Shown piece after piece: positions 31,884 through 54,500 of a DNA stretch of 64,000 nt. The notes beneath the pieces are model-generated. The model did no database searches. It saw only the letters and a list, made by a program, of their open reading frames with translations, and was not told the origin of the DNA. The DNA comes from Serendipita indica DSM 11827 (Eukaryota > Basidiomycota > Agaricomycetes > Sebacinales > Serendipitaceae). Where the stretch lies: positions 248,001 through 312,000 of the forward strand of contig CAJVGD010000016.1 of the NCBI GenBank assembly GCA_910890315.1, read 5' to 3'. The stretch's first letter is position 1; every line of letters starts with the position of its first letter. The translations under genes were made by a program, and so were the position numbers.

Positions 31884-32087
31884 ATGCAATCAGTGAGTGC
31901 GCGTACCTTGCAAGGCGGCCATTTTACCTGGTGTAGTCCATCCAAGTCCCCGTTGACAGCCACTGCGGCAACTCGAACTGCAATTGCGGTGACAATTGGT
32001 GAGTACGTCCTGGATGGATGTATGAATGATATTGAAAAAGGGTGTAGCGGATGCGAGGCCGGAAACTGCAAGTGCGGCTCCAAGTAA
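31884..32087 (+). CDS. Metallothionein MT-A (36 residues, three exons)
   Basis: Exons 31884..31892, 31937..31998 and 32048..32087 with introns of 44 bp (GTGAGT/GTGTAG) and 49 bp (GTGAGT/GTGTAG). The product has 36 residues with seven cysteines at 13, 18, 20, 24, 26, 31 and 33, a C-x4-C-x-C-x3-C-x-C-x4-C-x-C pattern, and ends CKCGSK. This closely resembles the seven-cysteine fungal copper metallothioneins such as that of Neurospora, which bind Cu(I) in a single cluster in the cytosol. There are no aromatic residues except one His. The exon pattern 9/62/n nt is identical to three other copies in the window, which is strong support for the splice model. Regulation by copper is expected for the family; I see a TATA box but did not identify a convincing metal-response element. 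Confidence 0.85.
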   Translation: MQSVSARTLQGGHFTWCSPSKSPLTATAATRTAIAVTIGEYVLDGCMNDIEKGCSGCEAGNCKCGSK

Positions 32088-32551
32088 TCGAGCGCGTTGT
32101 TCTCGCTAAGCAAAGGTGGGGTCACCACAGAGTAAGATGAAATAAAGCTGTTTTCTCGCAATGAGTGTATACCCAAGTACGAGTGGCCCATGGACGGCCT
32201 CTGAGCGCAGCGGATCCCCGAATGTCCCTGAGGATATGCCAACGGAGGCATTCTGTGCAGATTTCAGGACGCAGCGTATATTTTGAGAATTATTTCGGCG
32301 GTCAAGGTGTGGGCCTGAAGGACCTCGAGGCAACGAGTGGGAGGCTTCGATCGGCACGAGGTTGAGCATCCTCCAATCAGCTGTTAGCCCCGATTGAATA
32401 CACCTGAATATCCCAAATAACTCTTGAACCAAATAAATCCTCGACACATCGAAACACTTTGGACTCTGCCTTGACCCTTGTCGCCACCGCCGCCGTCGAC
32501 GATATACCCACCACCAGTGTATTTGGCTGGTAGATGGACTAGGATTTAGCC
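32088..32551. other. Intergenic region between MT-A and the Byr4/Bfa1-like gene
   Basis: No gene recognised. It is likely to hold the MT-A terminator and the promoter of the next gene. Confidence 0.4.
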
Positions 32552-35500
32552 ATGCTAGGTCGCAAACAACAAGGTGAGCCAGAACACGCTGTCCACGCGG
32601 CGGAGATGCTGCCTGGGGTTCATCTTTCGACTGCAAATCTCGTCGAAAATCAGCTCAGAAATAAGAAATAATTCTAGAATCATCATTCCCATCTCTACAT
32701 TCCGTTATCGATGCGCCATTGGCCGTCCAGTGGCCCCAGACGATCCCGCCCAACCGTCCCTGTCGGATCACTTTCAGCGACATATGACGCCTTTCAGAGC
32801 TTATTAATCCCTTCTTGAATCGTCTCTGAGCGTCAAGGATCCATTCCGAGCTGCCTGTAGGGCACATTCCCCGCCTTCTTCGTCCCCCCCCCCCAAAGCG
32901 TCCCCGTCAATTCGCCGCGTGTTGTGATTTAAAACTCAGTTCTGACCAAATTCTTACAGTCGTAGAAGAGAATTGGGATGACGACTTTGAATTTGGCAAT
33001 TCACCCCGCAACTCGCCCGTTCCGACAACGGCCCCTATCCATCATCTCGTCCACAAAACACGCTCCCAAAACTATCATGCAAGATCTAACACGGACCTCC
33101 ATTCGCAATCATCCCGAGAAGGCGGCTTTAGAACGGCCAGCCGCACCAATCTCCAACGGGCGGCCCTGTCCTCGACAAGGATTGCCCACCCACCACCCAG
33201 CTCGGCGCATTTAGCCGTCATCTCCAAAGATAGGAAAGCAAGATGGAGTGGGAATAGCGAAGAAGATTGGGATTTGGAGGAAGCGGATACTACGATGAAA
33301 GCCCCTCCCCAATTGGTTAGTTTCACTTCGGACAACCCTCCGAAGGGACTTTACTGATGTCCCTCTTTCTAGCCTCAAACGTCTGCTGCTCCTCATGCTT
33401 CCTCGCATGCGCAATCACATTCGTCCCATAACCGTGCGTCGACGGACCAAGAGAGTCAAATCGTCCATTTCAACAGTCGCCGCTCTCCTTCACCTTCTGG
33501 AAATGCATCACCCACCATGTCTGCATTCTCTATCCCACTTTCCGCCACCTCTTCCATCCGACACCACGCTGCTCCGTCCATTGGCGGTTCTTCGACAAAC
33601 TTCCTCTTACACAACGGACGTCGAAGTGTTATGGAGATTGAAAAGAGCCGACACGACCGCGAACGGAGGCGTCTCAGGAAAAAGTCTCGTCCGTCGGGTG
33701 GTGCGACACAAATGGAAGACGGCTTTGACTCGTCGGATATCCCAGCTTCCAGTGGCCAAAAGCTCGTGATACCACGTCGATACGCTGTAGGAGGTGGACG
33801 GGACGCTCATAGTTCGTCTGAATCAGACGACTCTGGCGGCGAGCTATCCGAGCTCGAAGAGGAAGCGTCTGGGCCCGGTCCCGCCACCTTGAACAAAGCC
33901 GTTGCTGCTGCTGCTGCAAACACGAGCTCGGCTGGTACTACCCAGACTCCATCTCGCGCTCCAGTCCAGCTCAAGCCGACGTCGTCGAGGCCCACTTTGG
34001 CTTCGGTCCTCTCGCCTCGCGGGTCGACTGCACCTTCAACATCTGGCACGAGGACACCTGCTGCGCCACCTTCAGGTTCCGGTGCACAAAGTGGTCCGTC
34101 CAAGTTGATTCGCAAATCGTCGAATCTTTCCAAGACGGCTTCGCCTGTCATTGGCACTCAGCAGCTCAAGCCCAAATCGTCGATCCCACTTTCGTCTACG
34201 TCTAATGTCCCTCAAATGCAAATCTCACCTGCGAGAAGTGCGACGAGTGGCCCAAGTCTTCCACCCACTTCGCCACCTCGTTCTGTCCTCGAACTGAGGG
34301 CGGCTGCCCAGCCACGACATGATGGATCAGAGGATGGACATGTAAATGATTGTGGATCGTCGATTGCTGGGTCCTCACACAAGGCTCGTACGCCGATTCT
34401 CGCTCGTCTCAGTGGTCTCAAGCGATGGAGTAAGAGTCCATCTCTCGGGGCGTCGTCCAAGCTTCCTAGTCTGGGGAGTACCACTGCTTTCCCTACGTCG
34501 CCGTCGACGACGGATGTCACCTCTACCCCTGGCTTAAAGTCGTCGAGTGGGTCCATTCGCGCAAAAACGCTTGGACTCGTCCGACGCGCCTCGCAAACGT
34601 TCCGTAACAACGATGAACCGACTCCATCTACTTCGACCTCGAACGCTGCTGCATCACCTTCTGGAAATGACGAGGGCCGTCGTGGGATGAATCCCTTTCG
34701 GCGTGTTTCGCTTACGGGGATGAAAAGACTCGTGACGGATCATCATCATCACCCACCATCCCGTCTCAGCACGGAGCAAACGCGGGATGGTGATGACGAG
34801 GCGGAGCAGCCTCCTCAGACGCTCCTCGAGCTCGCGGCTGCTAAACGCGCTGCGGCGGCCAAAGCTGAAGCGCAAAAGCAAGAAGAGCGACAAAAGGAAA
34901 AGGAGCGAAAGCGAGAGGAAAAAGAGAAAGAAAAGGCGGAACATGGCGGCAAGACGACGTCGCATCTTCGCAACTCGCTCAACTTTGCCAGTCGGCTTCG
35001 GTCAAAGTCGGGTGGGAATGATGGCAAGACAGAGGTGGCGTCTAATGTGCACAAGGATGCGGGTGCGAATATTGGTGTCGCACGTGCTCCGCATACGCTT
35101 GGACGGACTGCGGCGTTGGCAAAGGCGCCCAAGCCTCCTGTCAAGTCGTTGATGTCTGGAGTGGCCTCGTCGAGTGATGATACGTCGTCTCTTTCTGCAT
35201 CCCCCGCGTCCAGTCGTCCTCGTCAGCAGCTACCGCCAGTCCCTACGGATTCCAAGCCACGCTCGTCTGCGACTCCATCCAAGTCCGCTGCAGACTCGAT
35301 CTCTCGTGGAACGTCTCGACGACGTGAAGAGGGGAGTACGCGACATACTCGCGAAGGCACCGCGCGTCCGCCTTTGTCTACGACGAGCGCGTCCAAGTCG
35401 AGTTCATCTGGCGCGCAGCTCGATAGCACCCCCCGTGCGTTTAACAGCGTCAAGGCTCTCCCACCCACTGCGGACGCTCGTGCGGCCATTCCAGTTGAAT

Positions 35501-36977
35501 ATCGCATGACGAATACCGCCGATGATCGAGCGTCGTTGACGCCCACGACTGCTGCTACGATGGGTCGTGCCATGGGTGCTACTGTTCAGGAGAAAAAGGA
35601 GCCCGGAGGAGTAGCGTCGGCGAGGCGCAGCGGCATGCGCACGGTTCGTCTTCGCGGCGTGGTGGTGAGCTTAGGATTCCGTCGAGGATTAGTATGAAGC
35701 AAGGCGCGTTGAAGCGTGAGCTCGAGGCTGTCAAAGAGTTTGCGAGCAGCGTCGAAGGTGGGTTTTTTTTGGATGTTTTTCTAGCAGGATCTGATAAGTT
35801 TTCAGAGCTCAAGCGGTTCCAGTCGACGTATCATGACATCCTCAATAGTCTGCCTGCGTCTCGTCGCAATACTTCTTCGCGCTCGGCGGCGAGACAACTC
35901 GCTGCGGTCGAGAATGTGAGCTCGCAGTATGCGCTTTGGTGGGAGTGTGCAGAGCTCCTTGTCGAACTTGGTGGTGCTGCACCTCCTACGGTTGCTGGGA
36001 CACCAATTCACGAGGATATTCCTGCGAGTACGAGCGCCTACAGTACCTCTGGTGCGTATTCTCATATCATATGGGTTCGATACTCATGTCTTGATAGGAA
36101 CCCAGCGCTCCTTTTCAGCACCTCTAGTCATGGCGACCTCAGCCACCGACAGCTCAATCTTCTTCGCCAGATGCTCTCGACACCCAATCCACGTTCCTTT
36201 AACGAAGCCGTCGCCTCTATTAACCCCAGCACGTCGCAAGCGACACTCTCCTCGCAGCAGAGCAGTCGAAGTACTGCCGAAGACTCGACGAGGCCCCGAC
36301 GACCGGGTCACTATCGCGAATTGAGTGGATCTGGCTCTGACCACGTCATGTCCGACCAGGCGTCGACGACGGGTAACAAGAGCAGTATCGACTCGCGCGA
36401 CAGCCATGACCCGGCGTCAATGAGAGGTGGCAACTATCCTTATTATCACGGTACCTGGAAGCACAGTGTGCGCTCTGGAACACCGGCTGGAACTTCGTCG
36501 ACGACGGGTAGTCGACCAAGCCTCGCTGGCATGTTTGCTAATAGTCGCGATATTACGCCCACCAATGCCCCCAAGTCAAAGGACAGCTCTGCATACGAAA
36601 GCAGCTCGTCTGCTGCTGGACAGACTGGCGGAGACGGCAGCGGTTCGGATTGGGATGCCGAGTCGGACGGGGATAAAAACACGTCTGCGTCTCGACATCT
36701 CCCGTCTCTCCCTTCTCCTTCGACGACGACTTCTTCTCTCGACTCTCTTCCCATGCGTCTTGCACTCACACCGGAGAATATCGCGCCCTTGCTCGCTTAT
36801 GCGAAAGAAGTCAAGGCGCGGCTTTCCGAGTGTCTGCAAGAGCTGGGCCAAATCAAGAACGATACCAATAATACCATTCCGATGAACGTCCATGCTGTGC
36901 CTGTCGCTCAACCACTCGCCAGCGAAGGACGACGACGAGAGCAGGGATCCGGCACCTCGACGATTCGTCGTGCGTGA
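32552..36977 (+). CDS. Byr4/Bfa1-like septation/mitotic-exit regulator (candidate), with frame breaks
   Basis: The proposed exons are 32552..32573, 32960..33315, 33373..35757 and 35806..36977. The first exon (MLGRKQQ) joins in phase over a 386-bp intron to VVEENWDDDFEFGNS. That acidic WDxDFE-type motif, with a second NSEEDWDLEEAD, is characteristic of Byr4/Bfa1-like and related septation-network proteins. The long middle is Ser/Pro/Lys-rich and disordered. The C-terminal part has QYALWWECAELLVELGG, HGDLSHRQLNLLRQML and a final conserved LALTPENIAPLLAYAKEVK. Byr4/Bfa1 is the scaffold of the two-part GAP that restrains the septation GTPase at the spindle pole. Near 35605 the frame is lost by one base in a C run; the inverted copy at 44.7 kb is continuous there. 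A second one-base problem may exist near 36115 in a T run. Family assignment is moderate. Confidence 0.6.
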
Positions 36978-37754
36978 GGGTCGGAACGTCATATCCCTAC
37001 ATCTCGTCTCTACTCTATCCCTCTCGGGCCGACACCTACGTTTGGCACCTCTTCTGTTTAAACTGTGTGTAGCACCAATGTATCGCAACACGGACGCTTT
37101 CTTTTCTTGACTTATCGGAATCTCTCGGCAATGGTCGACGAGTCTCTCCCTTGATTTGCTGTACTTGTACTTGCTAAAACAATGGAATGGAACTCTGATT
37201 TCTCTCTCATCCATGATGGGCGCGAACGTGTATTCATCAAAGAACTTTGACAGGATGTCAATCGATAATTTCTATATTAATGACTCCCAGCACTCCTATG
37301 CAATGTCGGACTTGATGATCATAGCGACTTGAACATCTGCTGCGTGATTTGTCGCGATACCTCCCTAACACACCCAGGGGCTGGGCGTTCACGCCTGTCA
37401 TCTTCAACTCTGAAGAATGCCAAGCTCCTTTGCTGTTCAGCATGTACTTTGCATAGCCCTCGTGCTGCCATTCAGCCCATGGTATCTCCCACAGCGCGGT
37501 TGGGTCATCACACCATCGTCAAAACCAGATATGTGAGAGGATTGAAGTGTATAGACGATGAAGAAGGCTGAGTTACACGAAAGGTCTGTTGGCATATGGT
37601 ATGAATGAAAATGCCTATAGGACCCGTACCTCGTACATAGGCTGGTCGATACCAGTGATGAATCAGCGGCCGCGGGAAGCGTAGACTACCCATATGTATA
37701 AAACATGTACGTGCCAATATCCCCTGCAACAGCTATTCGCCGCTGTAGGTAGAA
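36978..37754. repeat. Spacer S1 downstream of the Byr4/Bfa1-like gene (repeated at 40.8-41.3 kb)
   Basis: From about 37080 to 37600 this matches 40790-41300 in the same orientation (for example CACGGACGCTTTCTT, TCGGAATCTCTCGGCAATGG, CATCTGCTGCGTGATT). Part of it (37290-37400) resembles a piece of the SLY1 coding region at 49160-49240 (GTCGGACTTGG, CTGCTGCGT). It thus appears to be the old junction between the two flanking genes, copied with each unit. Confidence 0.6.
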
Positions 37755-38833
37755 ATGGAAGAGTTAGAGACTCGTGTTGGGATTGATATGTTGCGCATCA
37801 TCTCGATGATCATTTGGAGTCTGATTTAAAGTGTCTTCGTATATGGCTGCTTATCGTCCTTCCCATCGCTTTCCGCAAACGGGGGTCTGAACTGCCGCGG
37901 AGATGCGACGATTGTGGACTGGCTGGAAGGAAGTGAGTTTAAGAACCCTCTCTGTGGTATTCCGTGCCTAAGCGGGGGAATGTGTATGAGCAGGGTGAGG
38001 ACCATACCGGTGATGACTTTATGTGAATAAAATGAGCCCAATAGGATCCAGCGCATTCCTTGGTCCTCCCTCCCCATCAAGTATCGTATCTAGCAAGTCC
38101 TAAATGTCCTCAGTAAGGCCATATCGCGAGAGGGAATATGGACGTGTCCCAAGCGTGATGCGCAATTCATCTCCTCGTGAGTCGTTGCCTTCATCAATGC
38201 GTGTCTCTTCCATCCTATTGCTCCCTCGTACTTGTCCTCGACCATCCCACCAGTGGATTTCGACTCCCTCCCGTCCCCACACCCCGTCTTGTACGCACCA
38301 GTAATCGAGGTGTCCAGAGAGGCTGATAAAACATCCTATCCACCAGGAATACCACCTGGCTGATATTACAGCCTAATTTCGTCGTCTCCAGCACAGGAAA
38401 GCGTCTCCAACTCTTCGCCCGCTTGGGACAACGTCCCCGTCCCGATCATCGACGCAGTCTGGGGGCATCGTCCCTTTGGCTCCAGCATACCTGCCGTGCG
38501 TCAGTCTCTTGGAATCTGAAAGCGGAACCAACGCTCACTGGCGACACCCACCCAAATAGGCAGACGCTCAACGTGATCCACGGCTAACGAACCAACGCGC
38601 CCCAACTCAGAGGCTCTCTCTTGATAAGAAAAGGCAGACTAGACTCCGAGTTTGGTCCACAGGCATCAAAGAGTCTTGTGAGTATCTCATCGGTGCACGG
38701 CCTCATCAGGAAGCTCAGTTAACTCCTCGTATTTCTCATTTCTCAGCACATCAAGTGGACAAACGGAAGCAACTTGCATTTACTCGCTGCTACAACGGAT
38801 CAACGACTTGGGGGGCCGAGGCTACTCAGCACT

Positions 38834-39042
38834 TCAGCACTTGCACTCGCCAGTCTTGCATTGGCTACAACAAGGCTCAGAATACTGTCGAATATCAGGA
38901 GAGGGGGCATACCAGGCATCACCGCAGCCGCAAGAAGAGCCACCGCAGTTCTGGTTGACAGGGACAATGGTTTGCTGGACGGACGCTCGTATCAGTACCA
39001 GAGCCAGAGGGCCAAGGAGGGAGAGGGACGTACAGAGATCAT
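38834..39042 (-). CDS. Metallothionein MT-C (33 residues, three exons)
   Basis: Exons 39042..39034, 38974..38913 and 38864..38834 with introns of 59 and 48 bp (GTACGT/GTCCAG and GTATGC/TTGTAG). The product has 33 residues, starts MISQTIVPVNQN and has seven cysteines at the same positions as MT-A (13, 18, 20, 24, 26, 31, 33), ending CKC. The encoded protein is identical to that of MT-B in the inverted arm. Exon lengths 9/62/31 recur in all copies of the units. A TATA-like box (minus-strand CATAAAA, at 39121-39127) lies about 80 bp upstream, and a short tandem repeat of a 9-mer lies in the leader. Function inferred from the family: cytosolic copper binding and detoxification. Confidence 0.85.
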
Positions 39043-39049
39043 GGTGAGT

Positions 39050-39095
39050 TTGATTTGTTCGAAGTGTTCGAGGTGTTCGAGGTGTTCGAGATGCT
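39050..39095 (-). repeat. Tandem 9-bp repeats in the MT-C leader
   Basis: On the coding (minus) strand, CTCGAACAC-type units are repeated about four times immediately upstream of the ATG. The same array precedes MT-B; MT-D retains only about one unit. Confidence 0.7.
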
Positions 39096-39884
39096 CAACT
39101 CGTGCCAGCATCCAGCCGCCTTTTATGCGTTTTCGAGGCACCCCTCCCTAAATCCCGGTTACGTGAACAGCTAACCGAGGTGACATCGCCTACTCAACCG
39201 AGACGCGAGCATTACCAAGCTTAGCAGCGTATATTGACGTGAATCAAGCTCGCTCCCTCGATCGGCGGCAAGCAGCTTACGATAGCCAGCCTCAACTGGC
39301 CTTGTGATTGGATGGTAACAACGTAAATCCATTATCCAGGCGCGAGTGAAGGCCCAGAGGAGGGCGTTATCTTAGCGTCAATCAAGGTCCGCCCGCTATG
39401 GACTTCCTCAAAGGGGTACTACAGCATCAAGAGTCATGCCGTGTACAAAATGTATGTATGCACGTACCTTAACGCATCGTTCAATGCCTCGTTGCTGATC
39501 TTGTGAACGTTTTCAGAGGTGGCAGCCATGACACAAAAGACTGATCAAAGGGCCGTATGGATGATGGCGGCCTTCTTTGACAGAATGGAACTCGCGGGTA
39601 GAAAATTCAAACGTAATTTGGCGCGCTTGAAGAGACTGCACAATTGACTCGAGCGCGGGACATTCTTTTGTCATTATTGGCGGAGCAAAGGAGCTGTCAA
39701 CTGTATGAAACCAATCCGTACGATGATGATTGTGGCTATCGATTGAATTTGGATACAAGTGTTGAGAGGTGCACTTCCTCGTGAGTCCCTGAATAGCGTT
39801 CGGAGACCAACCGAATTCTACTTGACATGAGGCCTTCATAGGTGCACTCATACTCTTGAATATTCCCTAAATCGCCGACCCGTC

Positions 39885-40745
39885 GCACAAGGCCAATCCA
39901 CCGATTCTGGCTCGTCGTAGCTGTCTCAAGTGATGGAGCAAAGGTCCATCTCCCAAGCAAGCTTCTCAGTATAGAAGACCCCGAAATTTCCATCTACCAC
40001 GAGCGTCTCCTCTCCCACACTGGGTGCTACTGGACTGAATTCGTCGCCCGGTCCCTTTCGCGCCAAGACGCTCGGACCTGTTGAATGTACCTAGCAGGCG
40101 TTCCGAAACAACGGTGGACCGATTCCGTCTACTTCCACCCTGAACAATTGTTGGGTGACAACGACCACTTGGTAATAAGTACTCAGCCCGGGCTGTTAGG
40201 CCCCTCTATATGGTGGGCAAGCTCGTGTAGAATCTAGTTCTATGTACACGAGTTTATATAGATTGATATGACTAATCCATGAGTAATCATCCATCTTAAA
40301 AGTAAAGCCGCGCATAATCCTTGATTACTTCATCTGGCTAATCTCCAACAACAATGCTGCGCCACCCTCTGGGAACGACGAAGGACGTTATAGGATGAAT
40401 CCCTTTCGACGTGCTTTGCTTATGGAGATGAAGGCTCGTGGTGGAGCATTAATATCATCAAAAATTGCGTCCCAGCACGGAGCACATGCGCGACGGCGAC
40501 GACAAGGCTCGAGCAGCTTCCCGGACGCCCCTCGAGCCCTCTGGCCAAACATCCTGCGGCAGCCAAAGCCAAAGCGCACATCGGCTACTCCGTCCAAGTC
40601 CACTGCAGGCTATATATCTCGTGTGACGTCGCAACAACGTAAAGGTGCGAGTACGCGACATGCCGTCAAGGTCATTGTGCGTCCGCCTCTATCCACCGCG
40701 ACGAGTGCGTCTAAGTCGAGTTCATCTGGCACGTAGGTCGATAGT
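39885..40745 (+). pseudogene. Fragment F1 of the Byr4/Bfa1-like gene (direct), split by a solo LTR
   Basis: 39885..40143 matches 34375..34640 of the intact gene (CCGATTCTGGCTCGTC, TCTACCACGAGCG, CTTCCACC), and 40356..40745 matches about 34650..34760 and then 35260..35430 (GAATCCCTTTCGACGTG, CGTCCAAGTC, GTTCATCTGGC). The internal ~500 bp corresponding to the Ala/Glu/Lys-rich part is missing. By eye identity is about 75-80 percent. It is not expected to be expressed. Confidence 0.75.
40149..40350. mobile_element. Solo LTR of an LTR retrotransposon (202 bp)
   Basis: The element begins TGTTGG and ends CCAACA and is flanked by the 5-bp direct repeat ACAAT (40144..40148 and 40351..40355), the classical mark of LTR-element integration. 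It interrupts fragment F1, so it inserted after that copy was made. No internal coding region is present; it is a fossil left by recombination between two LTRs. Family (Copia or Gypsy) cannot be told from the LTR alone. Confidence 0.75.
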
Positions 40746-40789
40746 ATGCCCCTTGCGTTTGACAGCGTCAAGGCTCTCCCACAGATGGC

Positions 40790-41300
40790 AAACACGGACG
40801 CTTTCTTTCTTGAATTATCGGAATCTCTCGGCAATGGTCGAGGAGTCTCCCTCTATTTGCTGTATTTGTACTTGTTAAAATAATGGAATGGAACTCTGAT
40901 TGCTCTCTCATCATTGATGGGCACGAACGTGTATCAATCAAAGAACTTTGACAAGGTAAAGTCCAATCGATGATTTCTACACCAATGATTCCCAGCCTTC
41001 CTATGCAGTGTCGGACTTGGCTTGATTGTGCTTGGAATGATCGTAGCGACTCGAGCATCTGCTGCGTGATTGTCGCGATATCTCCTTAACACGCCCAAGG
41101 ACCGGGTTTTTACGCCTTCTAACTTCAACTCTGAAGAAATCCAAGCTCCTTTCCTGTTCAGTGTGTACTTTGCGGAGCCCTCGTGATGCCACCGGACCCA
41201 TCTCCCACGGCTGGGCCATCATACCATTGTCACACTGACTATTTGAGGTAAGAGTACAACAAGAAGAAAGCTGAATGATGTGAAAGTCTGTTGGCATCCG
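40790..41300 (+). repeat. Spacer S2, direct copy of S1
   Basis: Matches 37080..37600 with scattered differences; ends at a shared TCTGTTGGCAT (37583 and 41285). It sets the period of the direct duplication at about 3.7 kb. Confidence 0.65.
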
Positions 41301-41469
41301 CACGGGTAGTGGGAGGGCCTATGATTGGACCGCAAACATCTGATTGCATCGGCCCCTGTGAATTGGCAGCCACAGGAGAACTAGAATGGATTATCCGTGT
41401 TCGTAGGAGATGTATGTAGCAATATCCCCTGCGAACTCTATTTGCCATTGTAGGTAGAGTTGGGAGAGC

Positions 41470-43560
41470 AGCGGCTCATGATGAGATCGATATGCCGCGA
41501 ATCATCTCAACAATCAGTTGAAGCCTAATGTGAAGTCCCATCGTACATGAGGTGCTGTCGTCTTTCCCATCGCTCTCAGCGAAGCGGGTTGACCCGCCAC
41601 AGAAATACGACGATTGTGACTGGCTGGAAGCTAGTGAATGTAGGAATCTTCTCTTTTGGATTCCGTACCTGAGCGAGGAAATGCGTATGAGCGGGGCGAG
41701 GACCATACCGGTGATGACTTTATGTGAATAAAATGAGCCCAGTAGGATGCAGCGCATTCCTTGGTTTCCCCCATCAAATATCGTATCTCGCAAATCCTGA
41801 AGCTCCTCATTAAGGCCCTATCGCCAGATTGTATATGGACGCGTATCCCAAGTGTGATGCAATGATTGCGCAATCATCTGCTCGTGAGGCATCCTCTTAA
41901 TCGGCGTGTGTCCGTTGCATCTTTCCGATATCTTGTGCTCGCCCTCAAGCACCGCACCGGCAGTTTTGGAGGGGGTCTCCACCTTTCGTATGGACCAGGG
42001 AATCGAAAGGTTTGGCTGTGCAGAGTGGCTAATAGGCACCATATACACCCATCAAAGCTATTAGAATACTCCATACTACTCCTCTCGCGGCCACCCGAAG
42101 AGACATATGCTCAACCGACGCTCAACGTGATCCATGGCTGACGAACTAGCGCGCGCCAAATCAGAGGCTCCTTGTGATACAGCCAACGGTCTAGATCTTG
42201 AATTTGGTCCACAGGAGTCAAAGAGGGATGTGAGGATCTCATCAGAGCACGCGTTATCAGGAATCTCAATTGTTTTCTCATCTCTCAGCACGGCAAGTGA
42301 AAAACAGGAAAAGGTTGAATTTCCTAGTCTTTACAACGAATTCGCAACTTCAAAGGCAAGACTGCTTAGCACTTCAGCACTTGCACTCGCCGGCCTTGCA
42401 TTGGCTACGAACAAGTCTCAGAATAATGTCGAATATATAAGGATAGGAATCATACCAGGAATCGCCGCAGTTGCACGAAGAGCTACCGCAGTTCTGGTTG
42501 ACAGGGACAATGATTTCCTATACGCTTTATCAGTACCAGTGTTTTTCACCACGGAGGTACAAGTATGGAGAGGGACACACAGAGATCATGGTAAGTTTGA
42601 CTTGTTCGAGACGTCCAACTCTTGCCAGGATCCAGCCGCCTTTTATGCTGTTCTTGAGGCTCTTCCTGGAAAGCCGTAGTATGAACAGCTAGCGAGGTGA
42701 CATCGCATACCGAGTCGAGGTGCGATCATCACCACGTTCGTGCCAAGTATGGCAGGGTATGTTGACATAATCATTCTGTCTATGGGAAATGGCCTCGGCT
42801 GGTGTAACGATTGGATGGCGTAGCGTAATTGCCTCATCCAACTGCCTCTACAGAGTGGGGCCCAGAGAAGAGCATTTTCTTAGGGTCAAAACAAACGTGT
42901 CGTGCTGAAGATTACAGAAGGCATAGGGTGGCCTCGAGAGCCATCCTGTACAAAATAGACGCACCATTTTTCCCTAACTTGTGGATGGCCTCATGGACGA
43001 TTATCGAAGCACTTTGGATGATCAAGAAAGGTCCTGGTACGTCACAACGGCTGATTTCCCATGTCGATAATGTATGGGTGTGCTCCATCAGCGGCGACTG
43101 CCAAGCCCAGATTTGGCCGACAAGAAAGTTCCGTCAGACCCTCAAAGAGGCTGGAGCATTTGATCTAGCGGAGGTAATAATATCGACGGGCGCCTTGCTA
43201 TCTCCCCCAAAAGTCTACCCTCAATGCCTTGATATCTACAAGGTACGCTATTGGTGCACTCGGAAGGCACTTTCCCCAGGGGCGAGAGGAAGACAGATAT
43301 AGATGATGGGGTACTCCGACAGAAACGTATCCGCGGATGGAACAAACGGAATGGCGCACTTGAAATGACTGATAATCCACTCAGTCGTGGACATTCTCTC
43401 CTTATCGCTAGCAAAGGATAGGTACCGTCAACTATACGAACTTATTTGATACGATGGTGATTCAAGTCGGCGTTTTAAATCAGGATACAAGTATCCCGAG
43501 CGTCCGAACACCACCCGAGTTCGACTTGACATGAGGCATTCATAGGTCTACTCATACTCT
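41470..43560 (+). repeat. Segmental unit M carrying metallothionein MT-D
   Basis: Direct-orientation copy of unit L. It is clearly older or faster evolving than the L/R pair: substitutions and indels are frequent outside the metallothionein exons. Recognisable anchors include CATACCGGTGATGACTTTAT (about 41706, also near 38005) and GTTCTGGTTGACAGGGACAA (about 42491, also 38949). Confidence 0.7.
42374..42589 (-). CDS. Metallothionein MT-D (33 residues, three exons)
   Basis: Exons 42589..42581, 42517..42456 and 42404..42374; lengths 9, 62 and 31 nt, the same as MT-B and MT-C. The introns (63 and 51 bp, GTGTGT/ACGTATAG-type and GTATGA/TCGTAG) differ in sequence from those of the other copies. 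The 33-residue product starts MISEIIVPVNQN, keeps all seven cysteines and ends CKAGECKC. Changes relative to MT-B/C are mostly conservative. Retention of a clean reading frame and splice sites inside a strongly decayed unit suggests selection to keep this gene. Confidence 0.82.
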
Positions 43561-43564
43561 TGAA

Positions 43565-44125
43565 GGGCCTATCAATTGCTGACTCGCCTCACAAGTCAAT
43601 CCACCGATTCCGGCTCGTCTCAGCTGCGCAGCGCTGTCTCAAGGAATGAGGCAGAGATCCATGCCCTTCACAATCTAGGAAGTCTCGGATCTACCATAGA
43701 CCATGGATCTCTCATCTCCACACTTGGGTGCTACTGGCCTGAAGTCGTTGACCAGCTCATTCATACCAAGATACTCGGACTCGTCCAACAGGCCTCGCAC
43801 ACGTACTGAAACAGTGATGAGCTGACTTCATCTACTTCCACCTGAAATACTGCTGCACCTTCTGAGGAGGAAATCGTGGTCTGAATTCCTGTTTCGCCTA
43901 CAGGGATGAAGAGGCTTGAATCATAGTCACTGGACATAGCGGAACAGACATGTATTTGTGACAACGAGGTGAAGCAACCATTCGGATACTCTTCGAGCTC
44001 GAGGTGGCAAAACTGCCGCAGCAGCAAAAGTCCAAGCGTAAAAGCAAGAGGAAGACAGAGAAAAGAAGAAACCTTCAGAGGAAAGGTTAAAGGAAAACGT
44101 GGAAGATTTCTCGATGTCTGATGAT
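43565..44125 (+). pseudogene. Fragment F2 of the Byr4/Bfa1-like gene (direct, strongly decayed)
   Basis: Matches 34375..34950 of the intact gene in order (CCGATTCCGGCTCGTCTCAG, TACTCGGACTCGTCCAACAGGC in part, TTCGAGCTCGAGGTGGC, AAAAGCAAGAGGAAGA). Many substitutions and frame losses make it the most diverged copy. It follows unit M exactly as F1 follows unit L. Confidence 0.7.
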
Positions 44126-44514
44126 GCCTCACAGAGAGGTGAAGAAGGGATGCGGCGTACCTGGGAAGGCTGCTACTCTTTACTATCCATACCCACTAGG
44201 TGAGGTGTATTTGTAATTTCATTTTCCGCATTATTTATCTGTACAAGTTGTCGCAGGCTTACTCTTATACATGTTTCGGGGCATACAGGCGCACGAGTTA
44301 GGGGTGGCCTTGGGTCGGATCGCGGGCTCACACGTACCATCCCCGCCGTGGTCTGTGAGTCAAAACTTTTGCCACTGCCTTTTCTATTCCGCATGTATAG
44401 ACATAAATACATACATATATCTTTAATACTTCTTTTCGTGAGGAGCTGGCTTCCACTGCTCCTTTGTTCTCGCAGAACGGCGAAGACTCTGGTCTCCAAC
44501 CAGGACCAAAACAT
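44126..44514. other. Unexplained spacer between two opposed gene fragments
   Basis: Lies at the turning point between the direct copies (F2) and the inverted copies (F3). It does not match the Byr4/Bfa1-like gene. No open frame, terminal repeats or target duplication were found. Confidence 0.35.
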
Positions 44515-45840
44515 CAGATCATGCTCAAACAACGCCAGAAAGATGCACCTTCGACGCCACTCGCAAACTCTTTGAAAGCCTCGGGCAAGCACTTCAACGC
44601 GCCTTGCTTCATACTAATCCCCAACGTAATTCTAACCTTGCCACCGCGTCGCGAAGATGAGCCGTGTGTATGACGCTGCGCCTCGCCGAAGCTACTCCTC
44701 CGGGACTCCTTTTCCTCCTGAACAGTACCCGCAGATGCACCCATGGCACGACCCAACGTAGCAGCAGGCGTGGGCGTCAAAGAAGCTCGATCATTGGTGC
44801 TGTTGGTCGTGCAGTATTCAGCTGGGATGGCCATACGAGAGTCCGCAGTGGGTGGGAGAGCCATGGCGCTGTTAAACGCACGGGACGTGCTATCGAGCTG
44901 CGCGCTAGATGAGTTCGACTTGGACGCACTCTTCGCGGCAGATAGAGGTGGACTCCCCTCTTCACGTCGTTATAACGTGCCACGAAAGATCGAGTCGGCG
45001 ATGGATTTGAACGAAGTAGCCGATGAGGGCGATTTGGAATCCGTAGGGACGGGCGGTGGCTGCTGACGAGGACGACTGGAAGCAGGGGAAGCAGGGAGAG
45101 ACGACGTATCATCACCTGACGATGCAACACCAGGCATCAACAGTTTTACAGAGGGCTTAGGCGTCGTTGCCAAAGCCACAGTCCGCCCAAGCGTATGCGG
45201 CGCAAGCGCGACGCCAATGTTCGCACCCGCATCCTTGTGCGAACTAGACGCGACGCCGCCTCCGTCTTGCCACCATATTCGGCTCTCTCTTTCCCCTTTC
45301 CTCTCGCTTTCACTCCTTTTCCATCTGTCGCTCCTCTTGCTTTTGCGCCTCGGCTTTGGCTGCCGCAGCACGCTTGGCAGCCGCTAGCTCGAGGAGCGTC
45401 TGAGGAGGCTGCTCGCACCTTGTCGTCGCCGTCGCGCGTCTGATACATGCTGAGACACGACGGTTGGTGATGATGATACTCCATCATGAGCTTCTTCATC
45501 TCGGTAGGCGGGCACGCAGGAAGGGAGACATCCCGCAACGTCCTTTGTCGTTTCCAGAGGGCGATGCAGCAGCGTTCAAGGTGGAAATAGACGAAGTCGG
45601 TTCTTCGTTTGTTGCGGAATGTCTGCGAGGTACATTAAACTGGTCCGAGCGTCTTATCGCGAAAGGAACTGGGCGACGATTTTAGGCCAGTAGCACCCGG
45701 TGTGGGGGAAGAGACGCCCGTGGTAGATGGCAAATTCGGGACTTCCTAGCCTGGATAGCTTGCCTGGGAGATGGAACTTTGCTCCATTGCTTGAGACAGC
45801 TGCGACGAGCCAGAATCGGTGAATTGGCCTTGTGCGAGGA
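44515..45840 (-). pseudogene. Fragment F3 of the Byr4/Bfa1-like gene (inverted, longest copy)
   Basis: On the minus strand, 45840..44515 corresponds to about 34375..35760 of the intact gene, including ARRSCLKQWSK, MKKLMMEYHHHQPS, DGDDKVRAASSDAP and the stretch NDRASLTPTPAATLGRAMG to SMKQGALK. At about 44700 its frame is continuous where the main gene loses one base. Elsewhere it has frame losses of its own. It is adjacent to unit R in the same relative arrangement as F1 to unit L. Confidence 0.78.
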
Positions 45841-46615
45841 GTAAGCGACTGATGGAACCTCCAAATGTGTGACTACGTCTATTTAGGTCTCATGTCATAT
45901 AGAATTCGGTTGGTCTCAAAGTGCTATTCAAGGACTCACAAGGAAGTACGCCTGTGAACACCTGCACCCTGATTTCAATCGATACCCACCATCAGTGTCG
46001 TACTGATTGGGCTCATACAATTGACAGGACCTCTGCTCTGGCATGTGATGAGAAAGAATGTTCCATGCCCGAGTCGATTGTGCAGTCTCTTGAAGCGCCA
46101 AAATTCTATTTGGATTTTCCACCCGCGGGTGCCATGCTGTTAAGGAAGGCCGCCACCATTCATGCAGACCTTGCTGCTGTGTCATGGCTGCCACCTCTGA
46201 AATCATCCATGCAATCAGCCAAGAGGCATCTACGGGTACGCAAAAGCATGAGAATGCGTACCTTTTGTGCGCGACATGACTCTCGATGCCGCAGCACCTC
46301 TTGAGTAGTTTGGGGCAGGCGGACCCTGATGGACGCTAAGATAATGCTCTCCTCTAGGGCTCTACCTGTGCTTGGATGATGAATTTATGGTATTATCGTC
46401 CAATCACAAGGCCAGTTGAGGCTGGCTATCGTAAGCCGCTTGCCGCCGATCGAGGGAGCGAGCTTGATCCATGTCAATATGCGCTGCTAAGCTTGGTAAT
46501 GCTCGCACCCCAGCTGGGTAAGCAATGTCACCTCGGTTAGCTGTTCACATAACGGGGATTTATGGAGGGATGCCTCGAAAACGCATAAAAGGCGGCTGGA
46601 TGCTGGCACGAGTTG

Positions 46616-46656
46616 AGCATCTCGAACACCTCGAACACCTCGAACACTTCGAACAA
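46616..46656 (+). repeat. Tandem 9-bp repeats in the MT-B leader
   Basis: CTCGAACAC units repeated three to four times just upstream of the MT-B ATG (46669), mirrored at MT-C. The unit contains TCGAA, but I cannot assign a known metal-response element to it. Confidence 0.7.
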
Positions 46657-46668
46657 ATCAAACTCACC

Positions 46669-46877
46669 ATGATCTCTGTACGTCCCTCTCCCTCCTTGGC
46701 CCTCTGGCTCTGGTACTGATACGAGCGTCCGTCCAGCAAACCATTGTCCCTGTCAACCAGAACTGCGGTGGCTCTTCTTGCGGCTGCGGTGATGCCTGGT
46801 ATGCCCCCTCTCCTGATATTCGACAGTATTCTGAGCCTTGTTGTAGCCAATGCAAGACTGGCGAGTGCAAGTGCTGA
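46669..46877 (+). CDS. Metallothionein MT-B (33 residues, three exons)
   Basis: Exons 46669..46677, 46737..46798 and 46847..46877; introns 46678..46736 (59 bp) and 46799..46846 (48 bp). The product is identical to MT-C: 33 residues, seven cysteines at 13, 18, 20, 24, 26, 31 and 33, ending ECKC. It is the mirrored copy, so MT-B and MT-C point away from each other's arms. A CATAAAA box at 46584..46590 lies 79 bp upstream. The tiny exons mean no single frame exceeds about 20 codons of metallothionein sequence, so automatic ORF calling would miss it. Inferred role as for the other copies: cytosolic copper chelation, with dosage raised by duplication. Confidence 0.86.
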
Positions 46878-47949
46878 AGTGCTGAGTAGCCTCGGCCCCC
46901 AAGTCGTTGATCCGTTGTAGCAGCGAGTAAATACAAGTTGCTTCCGTTTTTCCACTTGATGTGCTGAGAAATGAGAAATACGAGGAGTTAACTGAGCTTC
47001 CTGATGAGGCCGTGCACCGATGAGATACTCACAAGACTCTTTGATACCTGTGGACCAAACTCGGAGTCTAGTCTGCCTTTTCTTATCATGAGAGAGCCTC
47101 TGAGTTGGGGCGCGTTGGTTCGTCAGCCGTGGATCACGTTGAGCGTCTGCCTATTTGGGTGGGTGTCGCCAGTGAGCGTTGGTTCCTCTTTCAGATTCCA
47201 AGAGACTGACGCACGACAGGTATGCTGGAGCCAAAGGGACGATGCCCCCAGACTGCGTCGATGATCGGGACGGGGACGTTGTCCCAAGCGGGCGAAGAGT
47301 TGGAGACGCTTTCCTATGCTGGAGACGACGAAAGTAGGCTGGAAAATCAGCCAGGCGGTATTCCTGGTGGATAGGATGTTTTATCAGCCTCTCTGGACAC
47401 CTCGATTACCTGGTGCGTACAAGACGGGGTGTGGGGACGGGAGGGAGTCGAAATCCACTGGTGGGATGGTCGAGGACAAGTACGAGGGAGCAATAGGATG
47501 GAAGAGACACGCATTGATGAAGGCAACGACTCACGAGGAGATGAATTGCGCATCACGCTTGGGACACGTCCATATGCCCTCTCGCGATATGGCCTTACTG
47601 AGGACATTTAGGACTTGCTAGATACGATACTTGATGGGGGGGGAGGACCAAGAATGCGCTGGATCCTATTGGGCTCATTTTATTCACATAAAGTCATCAC
47701 CGGTATGGTCCTCACCCTGCTCATACACATTCCCCCCTTTAGGCACGGAATACAAAAGAGAGGGTTCCTACATTCACCTCCTTTCAGTCAGTCCACAATC
47801 GTCACATCTCCGCGGCAGTTCATACCCCTTTTGCGGAAAGCGATGGGAAAGACGATAAGCAACCATATACGAAGACACTTTAAATTAGGCTTGAATTAAT
47901 CTTCAAGATGATGCACAACGTATCAATCCCAACACGAGCCTCTAGCTCC

Positions 47950-48412
47950 CACGACTCGTATTCGCGACGGGGTGGTTTGCTCAAGATTCCGTCGCGCACT
48001 GGCATGAAGCAAGGCGTCGAAGCCGTCTACTTTGCTTTGCGGACATCACTTACGCATATTTTGATACCATTGCGATTCCAATTGGCTCACCATGACAATC
48101 TCAACACTTCGCGTTCGGCAGCTCGGCAGCGAGCTGCCGTCGAGAACGTTAGTTACAGTGCAATATTTGGTAGGAGTGTGTAGAGATTTTTGTTAAGCTT
48201 GGTGGCGCTACAGTTCTCACTGTCGTCCAGACTTTTCTATCGAAATCACTCACGACAACAGTCGAGAAGTTTCTCACTTGATTGTCGTACCCGTTCTTGA
48301 CCTACACTTGATGAAACAACGGAATGAGACGCTGATTGCTCTCCTGTCCGAGATGGTCCCAAACGTGTATTAGCCAAAGACTTTGGTAGAATGCAGTTAC
48401 AAAGGAGAACTT
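47950..48412 (+). pseudogene. Fragment F4 of the Byr4/Bfa1-like gene plus old junction sequence
   Basis: 47950..48240 matches about 35650..36010 of the intact gene (GATTCCGTCG, GCATGAAGCAAGGCG, CGGCAGCTCGGCAGCGAGCTGCC in variant form). 48245..48412 matches the downstream spacer around 37180-37290 (ACAACGGAATGAGAC, ACGTGTATTAG) and runs directly into the 3' end of SLY1. It looks like the right-hand half of the original Byr4-like/SLY1 junction. Confidence 0.65.
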
Positions 48413-51016
48413 CTACATAGATCCCAGTTTCCCTAGCACGTCCAAGAACGTGCATGGATCGAGAATTTCTGTGCCGCCGTAGCTCACGCGTCGATTCGTC
48501 TTGGCCGACCACTCGCCCAAGTTGCCATACTCGGCATACCCAGCACCGCCAACGACAAAGACCATAGCATCTTGGAACGTCATTCGTCGCGCCTTTTGTT
48601 CCCCGTCTGCGCCAGCGGCGGGGGTCGCGCGTGCGCGCGGATCGAGGAAGATAAAGTCGTCCGTCTCCGTCAACGAGGCCGTACTCGCGGACGATGGGTC
48701 CATGAGCGCCTCTGTGATACGGGTGACGGGTAAGAGCTTGGAGGATGGTAAAAAGTTTTTGACGCCCGCGAGAAGGTTGTCCAAACCACCTTCTTTCAGC
48801 CTATCCGTGAGCTAGAGTCATCCAGGTGAGTATCAGCTCAAGGTGGTTCTGAATACCTACTTTGTTGCCCAATACACCCCACCCACGACCCCATCCATCG
48901 GCCATACCGCCTCCAACTGGTGTCGCAGTTCCGGTTATTGCTCCTGGAACGCTCATCTTCATGACATCCTTCATCTTGCGTAGATACCTAGGGCAATTTA
49001 GCACGTCCACGGCGCTTTAGATATGACCAACCTGAAACTACTAAGATCCCACTCTTCAACGCCCGCCTTTGTAAGTTCCTTTTCTAGCGCCTCGACATCC
49101 TCTTTGCTAATGTTGGGCGCACTAAGATAGTACACGCATACCAGTCGTAGCTGATCCTGCGGTGTCGGACTTGGCTCGCTTTTCGTTTGGAAAGAACGTA
49201 GCAACTCGAGCATTTGCTGCGTAGTCTGTCGCGATATCGCCTCTTCTGTCGAAAAGAGTTCATCGAGTCCGCGGGCTTTGATCTCGGCTAGCAATGCTGT
49301 CGCGAGATTCATATGCGCATCCAATGTCGCTTTTCGCGCGGTGAGTTCTGGTAGTAGCGTGATTGCCGCCTTGAGGTGAGCTGCCGACGACGATACGTCT
49401 CTGCAACGGGTCAGTCTGGAGACAGAATAAGTCGAGAGGACGTACAGTTGTGAAATGTCGTTGACATCCTTGACGCCAGTCGATCGCGTAATGTCCGCTG
49501 CATCTTGCTTATACCTGGAACCTATCAGTCCTGCGCTTCGATAAACGTCAAGACTTACTTGGCCAGCTCCGCATCAATTTCCTCAGCAACTTGAGGAAAC
49601 GGGCTTGCTGCATGTTTTGCCCAGAAATAGTCTGACGAGTTGAGATCGTAAGACTTTTTCGTCTTTTTCTGTGGCTCAGCCTACCAATACGTTCAAAACC
49701 AGGGAAACAATCGCAGTATGCAACGTACCACAGTGACACGACCAAGCTTCATCTCGAGGCAATCGTGAATAAGACTTTGGTACGTCCATCCATGCGCAAT
49801 CATGGAGACGAGGTCAATATTACGATCAAGGATAATGAGAACTTTCGTCTGGATTAAAAGACGACCACGAACAGATAGAGGCCACGCACCAGGTCTTCCC
49901 AGTGCACCTACACCACCTCCGTCACTCGCAAACAGACTCCTGCCCGTGCGTGCAGCGTTGAGAATGTGATCCCGAATCTTTGCATTAAGCTTTCGCGCAA
50001 CCATCTCTGCTGCATTCCGTCGTGGACTACGAATATAGGGTACTTGTCCCGACGTGACGACCACTGAGAACAAGCCACTCGCAATTCGATCAATCTCCGC
50101 TTCGATGGTTTGTTCTGTTGCCGATGGTGCGTTGAGCGTGTAGTACGACGTTAATTCGGTTGTGAGGTTGGAGACTTCTCCTGCTTGGGCTGAGCCACTT
50201 GGTTGAGCTGGTGCTGTCGACGATGCCGGGAGGAGAGAAAAGAGTTGTGGTGATGGCGTGACGAAGGATAGATATTGATCTAGTACCTGATAGACGTTGG
50301 AATATATCATTTAGAAGAGTAAAATGAGACTCACCTGTTCGATAGATTCGCTGGTGCCATCTCGTGCAACGAGACTTGCAAGCTCCTCAAGTAGCGCTCG
50401 AGGTAGAGGTTCTATAAATGAGAGGTGATAACTCTCGTACAGTCCGGCGTTGAGATCTTCTGCTATCCTCTTGATGTTCTGGAGGGTGGGAGACACGAAA
50501 TAAATGGCAGGAACATCAGGCAACGCTGGTCTTGTGGTATGTAACTGCCTATATTAAACATATGGAATCATCAGCACCACGGTAACGCACCAAAGCACAT
50601 GACGAGGACGCGACGTTGCGTAAAAAACGGCCACGTACACATGCAATGTGACACCAACGTCTCTCAAGTCTTGAACTCGTAGCACCGTCGCGAGGACGTC
50701 TTTACTTCTGTTATCCAGAATTAAGACTTTCCATACTGTGGGTCCACTAGGCGCATTCGCAGCTCCTATACACAAAGCTACACGTTAGCCGAGGACGGTA
50801 AATGATAGCTGTACAAATAACCTAATGCGGTGGATTTCTCTGGTGCGATTGTCGGTGGTGGAGCATTCAGGTTTAGCATCGCGAGCAGTGACTGCGTCTG
50901 GAGGTGCTGTATTGTAGACGAGGACGTGATTGTCTAAGTAAAAGACGAAAATAAGCTGCTGTTTACATCGGGAACTAGACGTGACGATGCCTACGGACCG
51001 GTTTTTGAGACGCCAT
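48413..51016 (-). CDS. SLY1: SLY1, Sec1/Munc18-family protein of ER-Golgi transport
   Basis: Ten exons: 51016..50999, 50933..50822, 50765..50639, 50548..50335, 50286..49729, 49680..49559, 49514..49446, 49400..49032, 48987..48861, 48811..48413; introns 44-90 bp; joined frame 704 residues. Sequence features of the family: [60 protein letters not shown]-type core, [18 protein letters not shown], and the C-terminal [22 protein letters not shown]1 binds the syntaxin Sed5 and promotes SNARE assembly for ER-to-Golgi fusion. The frame is intact throughout and splice sites are canonical. It is convergent with the Byr4/Bfa1-like gene, now separated by the metallothionein units, and divergent from the NACHT-WD40 gene. 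Confidence 0.93.
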
Positions 51017-51569: not shown

Positions 51570-54500
51570 ATGTCGGAGAAAAGGCCAGACAAGGCCAAGA
51601 AATCACGCAAGACTGCTAGTAGACCGGAACCTCCATCTGTTGACCAGGCATCATCATCAACCAAGAGAGCCCAAGTGCAAGACACGGCCATCTTTAGCCT
51701 GGGCCTATTGGCGAATATATCCGAAGGATCAGATATACTGAGCCCTCTCAAGGCAGCTTGTCTGGCAACCAAGTCTATCCTCGAAGCTGCCCAGGTCAGT
51801 TGGCGAATAATAGTTGCGTGGGTCGCTTCATCTAACGAGCACGATAGGCCATAGACAACAACCAAGAAGAATGGAATGACCTCAAACGTCGTCTGGTGGA
51901 ACAAAGCTCTACTCTCGAAGAGCAACTCACGCTGTTCACCGCAAGCCCCCTTGAGGACGGCACCATCGATAGCGCGATCAGTCGGGCCCTCGTTAACTAT
52001 GGCGAGTACGTGGATCACTCTACAGAGAGACTGTGGGCTGATCGAGTCAGATCCCTCAAGGATATGCATGATATGGTCGACAATCTGCAGAAGAAGCGCA
52101 GTGGCAGCAAGCTCGGCTTCTTGAAGGCATTCATTAATGGAAAAGTGGATGTAGGAGAGATACTTAAGCTCAACAGGGATATCGAGCACAGCCATAGGCT
52201 GTTCATGGTGCGAGCATTATTAGTCTTATTCAAGCGCTCACCTCAAATGCAGGACGCCTTGAGTGTTTATACCTCGTTACGTCTTCGAACCATCGAAGAG
52301 ACCACAAAAGCTACAAGTGCAAACGTGGAAACAATTCTCACAGACGGTAAGTTAGAGCTTGGTGTGAGTCGCTTGCTTAGAAGTTCAAGCCGACAACGCT
52401 GCTATCCTCCAGCTGCCAACGTCAACATTCATTCCATCCTCTGTCCATAGAACATGTCTGAATGGAACCCGAGAGGCTGTTCTTCAGACAATCTGGGAGT
52501 GGGCCAAGGACGATGCATCAGAGAACCCGATATTTTGGCTATGCGACATAGCTGGCTCGGGCAAATCCACAGTGGCCATGTCTGCAGCAGAAACATGGCA
52601 GAGAGATGGGATACTAGGTGGCCAATTCTTCTTCTCCCTCGCGAGCAGCGAAGGGTCAACTACCGACAAATTTTGCTCTACCGTAGCGAGAGATCTCGTT
52701 CACTACATTCCCGAACTCGCGCCACACATTGCTGCGGCCGTGAAGCAGAAACCTTCTATTGTGCGGTGCTCTCTCGAGGAACAGTTCCAGACCCTCGTCA
52801 CTGGTCCCCTTCAGCAAGGGTCAAAACGCGTAATCCTTGTCCTCGATGCACTCGACGAGTGCAAATCCGCAGAACAGAGAAGAAAGCTACTCGAAATGCT
52901 TTTCACCGCCGTCCGAGATTGCAAGAATCTCAAGATATTCATGACGAGTCGGCCTGACCCTATCATCGAAAGCGCCCTAGGATCACTCGCGATCAAAACC
53001 AAGTTGGAGGACCGCCTCCATGATGTTCATCATCGCGATAATGTCGATGACATTGCGGTCTATATTCACCAATCGCTAGATGGAGTGCTGTCGGTGGACC
53101 AGAGGCAAAGGCTGGTTGAGAAGGCCGACAGGCTGTTCATCTGGGCGAGTACAGCGTGTCGAATGCTTACAAGCCAATCCACCTTCAGTTCGCCGCAAGA
53201 CATATATGACGATCTGGTCTCTATGGATCAGGCTGGAGCCATAGAGAACGTATACGATCTGGTCTTCGAGCGCGTGGATCCCGAATTCTACACGGTAATA
53301 AGTGCGATGCTCGGTCTGCTGCTTGTTGCGTTCGAACCGCTCACTGCCGGTGATCTGGACGATCTGCTGAAGCACGCCAGCATACGTGGAAGCGCCGAAG
53401 CGTTGGTGCGAAACCTTGGAAGCGTCCTCACCAAAGATGCCACCACAAATCTCCTCCAATTTCGTCACCCCACAGTGGTCGAGTATCTTCGACGACGCTC
53501 GTCTGCCTCTCCAACACCCGATAATCGTAACAGAATCCGCCCCGATATCGTCAACATGCACGGCCAAGCTGCATCCTGGTGTCTCAAATCCCTCATGTCG
53601 CGGACCGAAGGCCTCAAGTTCAATATATGTCAGCTCGAGTCATCTTTTCACCTAAATAGGCAGATCCCAGACATCGACACTAGAATATCTCGCTTTATTT
53701 CGAGAAGACTCCGATATGCCAGTTCGCATTGGTTGTTCCATTTGGCGGAAACGGGAGACGACTGGCGACGCACACTCGAGAATGGGGTAAAGCAAATGAC
53801 TCAAACCCTATATGTGCTGCCCTGGATGGAGATTCTGAGCTTCACTGGAGGAGTACCACGAGCGATAGCAGGGCTTCGGGCCGTTGCAGACCATACAGGA
53901 GTGAGTCGTAACTCTGAAACAACTTCGATAGCTTACAGAAATAGGTTAATGAGGAGACTAGCAACAGGATAACGGAGATCCGGCGGTTTATCATGGCATT
54001 TTCAGTGCCGATCCAGGACAGTGCTCCACACATTTACATTTCGGCCCTTCCGTTTATCCCTAAAAGGTCAAAAATACGCCTTGAAGCTTTGGATAAATAT
54101 ATGAATACCTTGAAAGTGACGCAAGGACTTGACGAAATGTACCCTGGACTCCCCAGAACTCTGCGAGGCCATATCCTCCCTGTCACAGCGCTGGCATTCT
54201 CCTCGGATGGCTCTAGATTTACCTCTGGTTCGGAAGACACAACAATTCAATTATGGGACGCGGAGACTGGTCAGCCTTTGGGTGAACCGCTTCGAGGCCA
54301 CGAAGGGTCTGTCATGGCAGTCGCATTCTCACCAGATGGCTCCAGAATTGTCTCTGGATCAAGCGACATGACAGTTAGAATGTGGAATGCGGTGACTGGC
54401 CAGCCTTCGGGGCAGCCACTCCGAGGACATGAACACTATGTCACGGGTGTGGCATTCTCGCCGGATGGCTCTCGAGTCATATCTGGCTCATTAGATACAA

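Follow-up and report, generated by a model that had tools for sequence, protein, structure and literature searches.

Six predicted heptaCys metallothionein genes of Serendipita indica and an old segmental duplication that holds three of them

Four genes in the window and two outside it

The stretch of DNA analysed here, called the window throughout, comprises 64,000 nucleotides of the plant-associated root endophyte Serendipita (Piriformospora) indica DSM 11827 (genome, 24,708,602 bases) and covers positions 248001-312000 of contig CAJVGD010000016.1 (C16); its GC content is 51.1%. It holds four small genes, MT-A, MT-L, MT-M and MT-R, each of which is predicted to encode a metallothionein from three exons. 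Because these exons are very short, the genes escape ordinary inspection of open reading frames. The four spliced genes had been noticed from the letters of the sequence alone, and this original prediction is confirmed: scripted enumeration of three-exon parses recovered the genes at all 4 proposed places, with exons of 9, 62 and 31 or 40 nt and GT..AG introns throughout.

MT-A (31884..32087, plus strand; exons 31884-31892, 31937-31998 and 32048-32087) has exons of 9, 62 and 40 nt and introns of 44 and 49 nt, and its predicted peptide of 36 residues, MQSSIQVPVDSHCGNSNCNCGDNCGCEAGNCKCGSK, carries the heptaCys motif and a GSK tail. This gene is positioned outside the repeated units described below, and TATAAAAG lies upstream of it. 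The other three genes have exons of 9, 62 and 31 nt and predicted peptides of 33 residues. MT-L is on the minus strand (38834..39042; exons 39042-39034, 38974-38913 and 38864-38834; introns of 59 and 48 nt), as is MT-M (42374..42589; exons 42589-42581, 42517-42456 and 42404-42374; introns of 63 and 51 nt), and MT-R is on the plus strand (46669..46877; exons 46669-46677, 46737-46798 and 46847-46877; introns of 59 and 48 nt). MT-R is identical to MT-L in both exons and introns, and the peptide of the two genes is MISQTIVPVNQNCGGSSCGCGDACQCKTGECKC; that of MT-M is MISEIIVPVNQNCGSSSCNCGDSCQCKAGECKC. The spliced translations of all four genes contain seven cysteines in the same spacing, C-x4-C-x-C-x3-C-x-C-x4-C-x-C, as had been claimed. 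It had also been claimed that the proteins of an "MT-B" and an "MT-C" are identical. This holds if the letters B, C and D stand for MT-L, MT-R and MT-M, but fails if they follow the coordinates, since the gene at 38834 (-) equals that at 46669 (+), whereas 6 of the 33 residues encoded at 42374 (-) are different.

Two further genes lie outside the window. MT-E (C16:410233-410456, plus strand) begins at C16:410233, at a distance of some 115 kb from MT-R, and has exons of 9, 62 and 31 nt, introns of 71 and 51 nt with GT..AG borders, and a predicted peptide of 33 residues, MISETIVPVNQNCGNSSCSCGDSCQCKPGECKC. MT-F, on the minus strand of C1 near 1034300-1034560, is a long form of 47 residues and 11 cysteines. 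In its preferred model, MPECEVKQSSCDWPACGCEKPPTSQNCGSSSCSCGDSCKCAQGECKC, the first exon is the start codon alone and is followed by a 47-nt intron containing TACTAAC; the second intron is 56 nt long, and both have GT..AG borders. The peptide combines a C-terminal heptaCys motif with an N-terminal extension bearing four extra cysteines (C-x6-C-x4-C-x-C), and its N-terminus is uncertain because several alternative parses are listed. Alternative parses retaining the cysteine core were found for every window gene as well. Here the 9/62 parse was preferred because it is the only listed one that gives equal lengths of the first two exons in MT-A, MT-L, MT-M, MT-R and MT-E.

Such genes are not expected by chance. 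ATG-initiated three-exon genes with the exact heptaCys spacing were found four times in the window and in none of 200 dinucleotide-preserving shuffles; the scan takes the first acceptable first exon, so that its N-termini for MT-L and MT-R differ from the preferred model. In the 24.7-Mb genome, a degenerate pattern for the core of exon 2 has 6 matches, namely the six genes named above, and a pattern for the core of exon 3 finds the same six loci and no other. Neither pattern has a match when reversed. Members with another spacing would escape this count, because both patterns were derived from the window genes. A third pattern, spanning the exon-2 donor, was too loose for counting: it missed MT-F, and its 12 matches, which included the five C16 metallothioneins, compare with 5 in the control.

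The six genes are filed as new members of the heptaCys metallothionein family of Agaricomycetes, which is already known; what is new is the set of six loci in this genome. According to PMC12508003, the hallmark of the family is a C-terminal C-x4-C-x-C-x2,3-C-x-C-x4-C-x-C motif, the short type reaches 35 residues and the long type 59, and AcMT2 has three exons with introns of about 50 bp, AcMT1 having four exons. The C-terminal motif is present in 6/6 of the genome's genes, including 4/4 in the window. As judged by the same text, MT-L, MT-M, MT-R and MT-E, with 33 residues, have the length of the short type, MT-A, with 36, exceeds its stated limit by one residue, and MT-F, with 47 in an uncertain model, falls in the long type. 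All six have three predicted exons, with introns of 44-63 nt in the window and of the lengths given above in MT-E and MT-F. The metallothionein identity of the original prediction is thereby supported, since the cysteine spacing equals the published consensus (PMC12508003), and so is its three-exon structure.

An old duplication, its decayed pieces and a homogenised tract

Self-comparison of the window revealed three units, L, M and R, so that three of the genes do lie within duplicated sequence, as had been proposed. Unit L (34372..40145) contains MT-L together with most of the open copy of gene X, which is rich in serine, and fragments of gene X interrupted by stops (39871-40145); it also has remnants of the frame of a gene Y. 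Unit M (40355..44092) has the orientation of unit L but is rearranged. Besides MT-M, it contains a remnant of gene Y (41479-41799), for which a stop was counted in a slightly longer match, and two gene-X fragments (40344-40802 and 43759-44079) that each carry stops. Unit R (44508..48016) is mostly inverted relative to L and contains MT-R and a gene-X copy (44538-45852) that runs through several frames with several stops; an additional gene-X fragment lies at 47947-48305. Stretches aligned between units are 68-84% identical, most of them 68-82%, except for 89% over a 2.4-kb L/R stretch that includes the tract described below. Those between L and M are 69-79% identical, with 73-75% over the two longest.

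Gene X itself (33373..36977, plus strand), which consists of two open frames, of 774 and 483 codons, that overlap and have no Pfam match, is the apparent source of the broken fragments, and its frame is open where the fragments in L, M and R carry stops. DNA that follows the metallothionein genes downstream resembles gene Y, a 360-codon open frame at C16:411190-412269 next to MT-E; at the protein level, gene Y has partial matches in units L and M, each with a stop. Three further frames at the MT-E locus have no Pfam match except for a serine carboxypeptidase in one of them. The region beside MT-E (409665 to 412325) and the units can be aligned with about 59-64% identity, and MT-E is therefore part of the same old set. 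The metallothionein gene is open in each unit, and the other copied pieces examined are broken or partial, except for the gene-X copy in L. Thus, the proposal of intact genes next to decayed copies is borne out by stops and frame changes in the pieces of genes X and Y and by none in the metallothioneins. Even inside the rearranged and decayed unit M, MT-M has kept its ATG, both pairs of splice sites, its frame and its stop.

Comparison of MT-M with MT-E demonstrates that the metallothionein coding sequence outlasts its surroundings. The coding sequences are identical at 92 of 102 positions (90%), against 38/61 and 31/50 in the introns (62%) and 100/188 in the 200 bp upstream. The dN/dS ratio is 0.16 for this pair and 0.17 for MT-L and MT-E. 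The seven cysteines are shared by MT-A, L, M, R and E without exception, even by MT-A and MT-L, whose first 33 residues differ at 15 positions. In intron 1, a GTACTGAY block near the 3' end is invariant in MT-L, M, R and E, the rest of the intron being much diverged, and looks like a branch point; the context of the intron 1 donor is conserved across the same four genes. A search for shared upstream k-mers found a TATA-like element in 6/6 genes and nothing else convincing that is common to all, and a metal-response element is not claimed. MT-L, M, R and E partly share roughly 30 bp of upstream sequence, a block with TCCAATC at its end. A 54-bp block at 42809-42862 is 87% identical to C16:409914-409967 in otherwise diverged DNA. 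It lies about 220-320 bp before the start codons of MT-M and MT-E and contains CCAATC, and is a candidate regulatory element. A 9-bp unit, CTCGAACAC, is repeated three times shortly before the start codon of MT-L (39055-39092) and in the matching leader of MT-R; MT-M has one similar unit.

Near-identity of units L and R is confined to one tract. Its approximate ends are 38030..39180 (minus strand) in L and 46530..47680 (plus strand) in R, and it takes in the promoter region, the metallothionein gene and about 0.8 kb downstream. From L 39180/R 46530 to L 38030/R 47680, every 100-column window of the alignment is 95-100% identical. In the kilobase on the promoter side, such windows are mostly 67-86% identical (67-90% overall). 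At this boundary, about 100 bp suffice for the identity to climb from 72% to 90%, after which it is 88% for about 100 bp and then reaches 95-100%; on the far side of the tract, it drops via 87-93% to below 75%. The alignment has 232 differences in 2303 columns: the best 1150 columns contain 14, and the 1153 others contain 218. Uninterrupted identity extends over up to 362 columns, compared with 163 or fewer in permutations, and 0 of 10000 permutations reached either measure. Constraint alone fails to explain the tract, because the identity of L and M within its span is only 51-88% and falls to 51-57% in places. The most likely explanation of this pattern is ectopic gene conversion, by which the inverted units would have been homogenised over about 1.15 kb; this would account for the identical proteins of MT-L and MT-R.

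Weighing the explanations

Taken together, these observations are best explained by a set of six members of a known family, three of which would have been spread by an old, rearranged segmental duplication that retained the metallothioneins, with a later conversion between L and R. We give this joint explanation a probability of about 0.86. A promoter with a TATA-like box would drive each gene, and the transcript, spliced from three tiny exons, would give, in the window, a peptide of 33-36 residues that is probably cytosolic. As thiolates, its seven cysteines, three CxC pairs and one more, would wrap around soft metal ions, Cu(I) and Cd(II) among them, and thereby keep surplus metal buffered; on its own, a metallothionein is expected to be disordered. 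The duplication would have given rise to three of the window's four genes, after which the co-copied pieces of other genes decayed and selection presumably retained the metallothioneins. Homogenisation of L and R would have followed. Several copies may yield more transcript, and homogenisation may keep at least two of them the same.

Several points weigh against this explanation. Searches of Pfam and NCBIfam with the five distinct peptides (A, L=R, M, E and F) returned no family at E up to 10, and a search of the PDB with the MT-L peptide returned three ribosomal uS5 sequences (E 0.45-0.47), dismissed as chance matches. Membership as proposed here draws on the definition given in one paper, which covers the spacing of the cysteines, the size and the gene structure. 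For gene Y there is no more than an open frame, which lacks a Pfam match. In the comparisons of MT-A with the other genes, dN/dS is 0.20-0.29 at a dS of 1.55-1.72, which is near saturation, and intron 1 of MT-A has no GTACTGAY block. As for the tract, the two-stage rise in identity and the shoulders of 83-93% on both sides may reflect more than one event, and a similar tract could also have been left by a second, partial duplication of recent date with subsequent loss.

Two more of these points concern the possibility that some copies, MT-M foremost, are dead or dying relics whose frame is open by chance since the coding region is short. MT-L and MT-M differ by 3 synonymous and 7 nonsynonymous changes, a dN/dS of 0.56 that taken alone is compatible with neutrality or relaxed constraint, and the first donor is GTGTGT in MT-M but GTACGT in MT-L, R and E. 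However, MT-M has kept all seven cysteines besides the intact signals listed above, and the contrast between its coding sequence and introns in the comparison with MT-E speaks for constraint. We therefore consider the relic explanation unlikely.

Still less likely is a recent amplification of copy number under metal selection like that of yeast CUP1, with MT-L and MT-R as the newest pair. Such an event would fit the near-identity of their proteins, introns and about 1.15 kb, and in yeast, growth on copper is associated with the number of CUP1 copies (PMC8150848). But the two units diverge on both sides of the tract, the gene-X pieces in M and R have many stops, and L and M are only 69-79% identical; the duplications are therefore old, and the patch alone is young. 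Again, since the near-identity is confined to the tract, the identical proteins are no sign of recent duplication. Amplification, which the original prediction had offered as the reason for them, is not supported as such, the units being 68-84% identical in all aligned stretches but one. That the peptides are other small cysteine-rich proteins, for example secreted ones, is hardly credible: the empty family searches and the predicted nature of the metal binding would allow it, but no hydrophobic leader was seen by eye in the first 12 residues, the CxC pairs stand in the exact family spacing, and the exon number is that of AcMT2 (PMC12508003).

A gene-dosage response, probably to copper, as first suggested, is plausible. 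Copper is not separable as the target, because 17/17 of the relatives in Table 1 of PMC12508003 confer protection on yeast against Cd as well as against Cu, with zinc results varying or missing. In the same paper, transcription in the family is often induced by Cu and/or Cd. Overall, the original prediction is partly supported: it was right on the family, too simple on the history and unproven on copper and dosage. The joint explanation might be extended to a dosage device under concerted evolution, in which selection for metal buffering repeatedly fixes conversions between inverted copies, so that MT-L and MT-R stay an identical high-dose pair and the other four genes (MT-M, E, A and F) evolve towards different metals or a different regulation. 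We regard this extension, taken as a whole, as tentative and rather doubtful. If true, it could help to explain how Serendipita indica tolerates or holds metals in and around roots.

A few other features lie around the repeated region. It is bordered by a Sec1-family gene (48416..50310, minus strand; three matching frames), and short stretches in or beside this gene resemble sequence of unit M. At 52368-55948 of the window (plus strand), a NACHT-type ATPase frame overlaps the next frame, in which Pfam matched 14 WD40 stretches; together, we take them to resemble fungal NACHT-WD40 proteins. Two phosphate-transporter loci, C16:201016-202698 (minus strand) and C16:223051-224696 (plus strand), are about 21 kb apart. 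The second (C16:223362), about 24 kb left of the window, is presumably PiPT of Piriformospora indica. It is identical over query residues 23-270 to PDB 9b49, with near-equal matches to 7sp5 and three more PDB entries.

Comparison with known metallothionein systems

In the literature searched, mostly below full text and thus no proof of absence, there was no report of Serendipita's own metallothioneins. The paper on the P. indica genome (PMC3192844), which reported its strain to be heterokaryotic with 2.6 SNPs per kb, contains neither "metallothionein" nor "heavy metal" in its main text (0 occurrences each), and literature retrieved with "PIIN" and "metallothionein" mentions a gene MT2 only for tobacco. 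The six loci are concrete candidates for the reported effects of this endophyte under metal stress. They also provide a clear natural case in which co-copied gene pieces decay and metallothioneins persist, and one of an inverted pair homogenised across introns. The latter contrasts with the suggestion that intron divergence can shield metallothionein duplicates from gene conversion (PMC12508003).

Among the short-type members in that paper (AcMT2, PiMT1, LbMT1, PaMT1, AsMT2, CcMT1/2 and ShMT1/2; PMC12508003), the motif is identical to that found here. Peptides have up to 35 residues, against 33-36 in the present short genes, which resemble AcMT2 in their three exons and introns of about 50 bp, and some species have multiple copies per genome, as here. 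The members in Table 1 belong to Agaricales and Boletales, whereas the present genes are from a Sebacinales fungus; "Serendipita", "Piriformospora" and "Sebacinales" are absent from the accessible text. A four-gene, 15-kb cluster with decayed pieces and a homogenised pair is undescribed there for any member. MT-F is like the long type (AcMT1, HcMT1/2, HmMT1-3 and LbMT2a/b, in the same paper) in having a C-terminal heptaCys motif and an extension. It differs in that the extension is no plain copy of the heptaCys motif and that the first exon of its preferred model is the start codon alone.

CUP1 of Saccharomyces cerevisiae is a tandem array of near-identical repeats. There, too, metallothionein genes have been multiplied by segmental duplication, and gene conversion is known as well. 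Unlike the head-to-tail units of CUP1, the units of the window are few and mostly 68-82% identical: L and M are in direct orientation at 73-75% over their two longest alignments, and R is mostly inverted.

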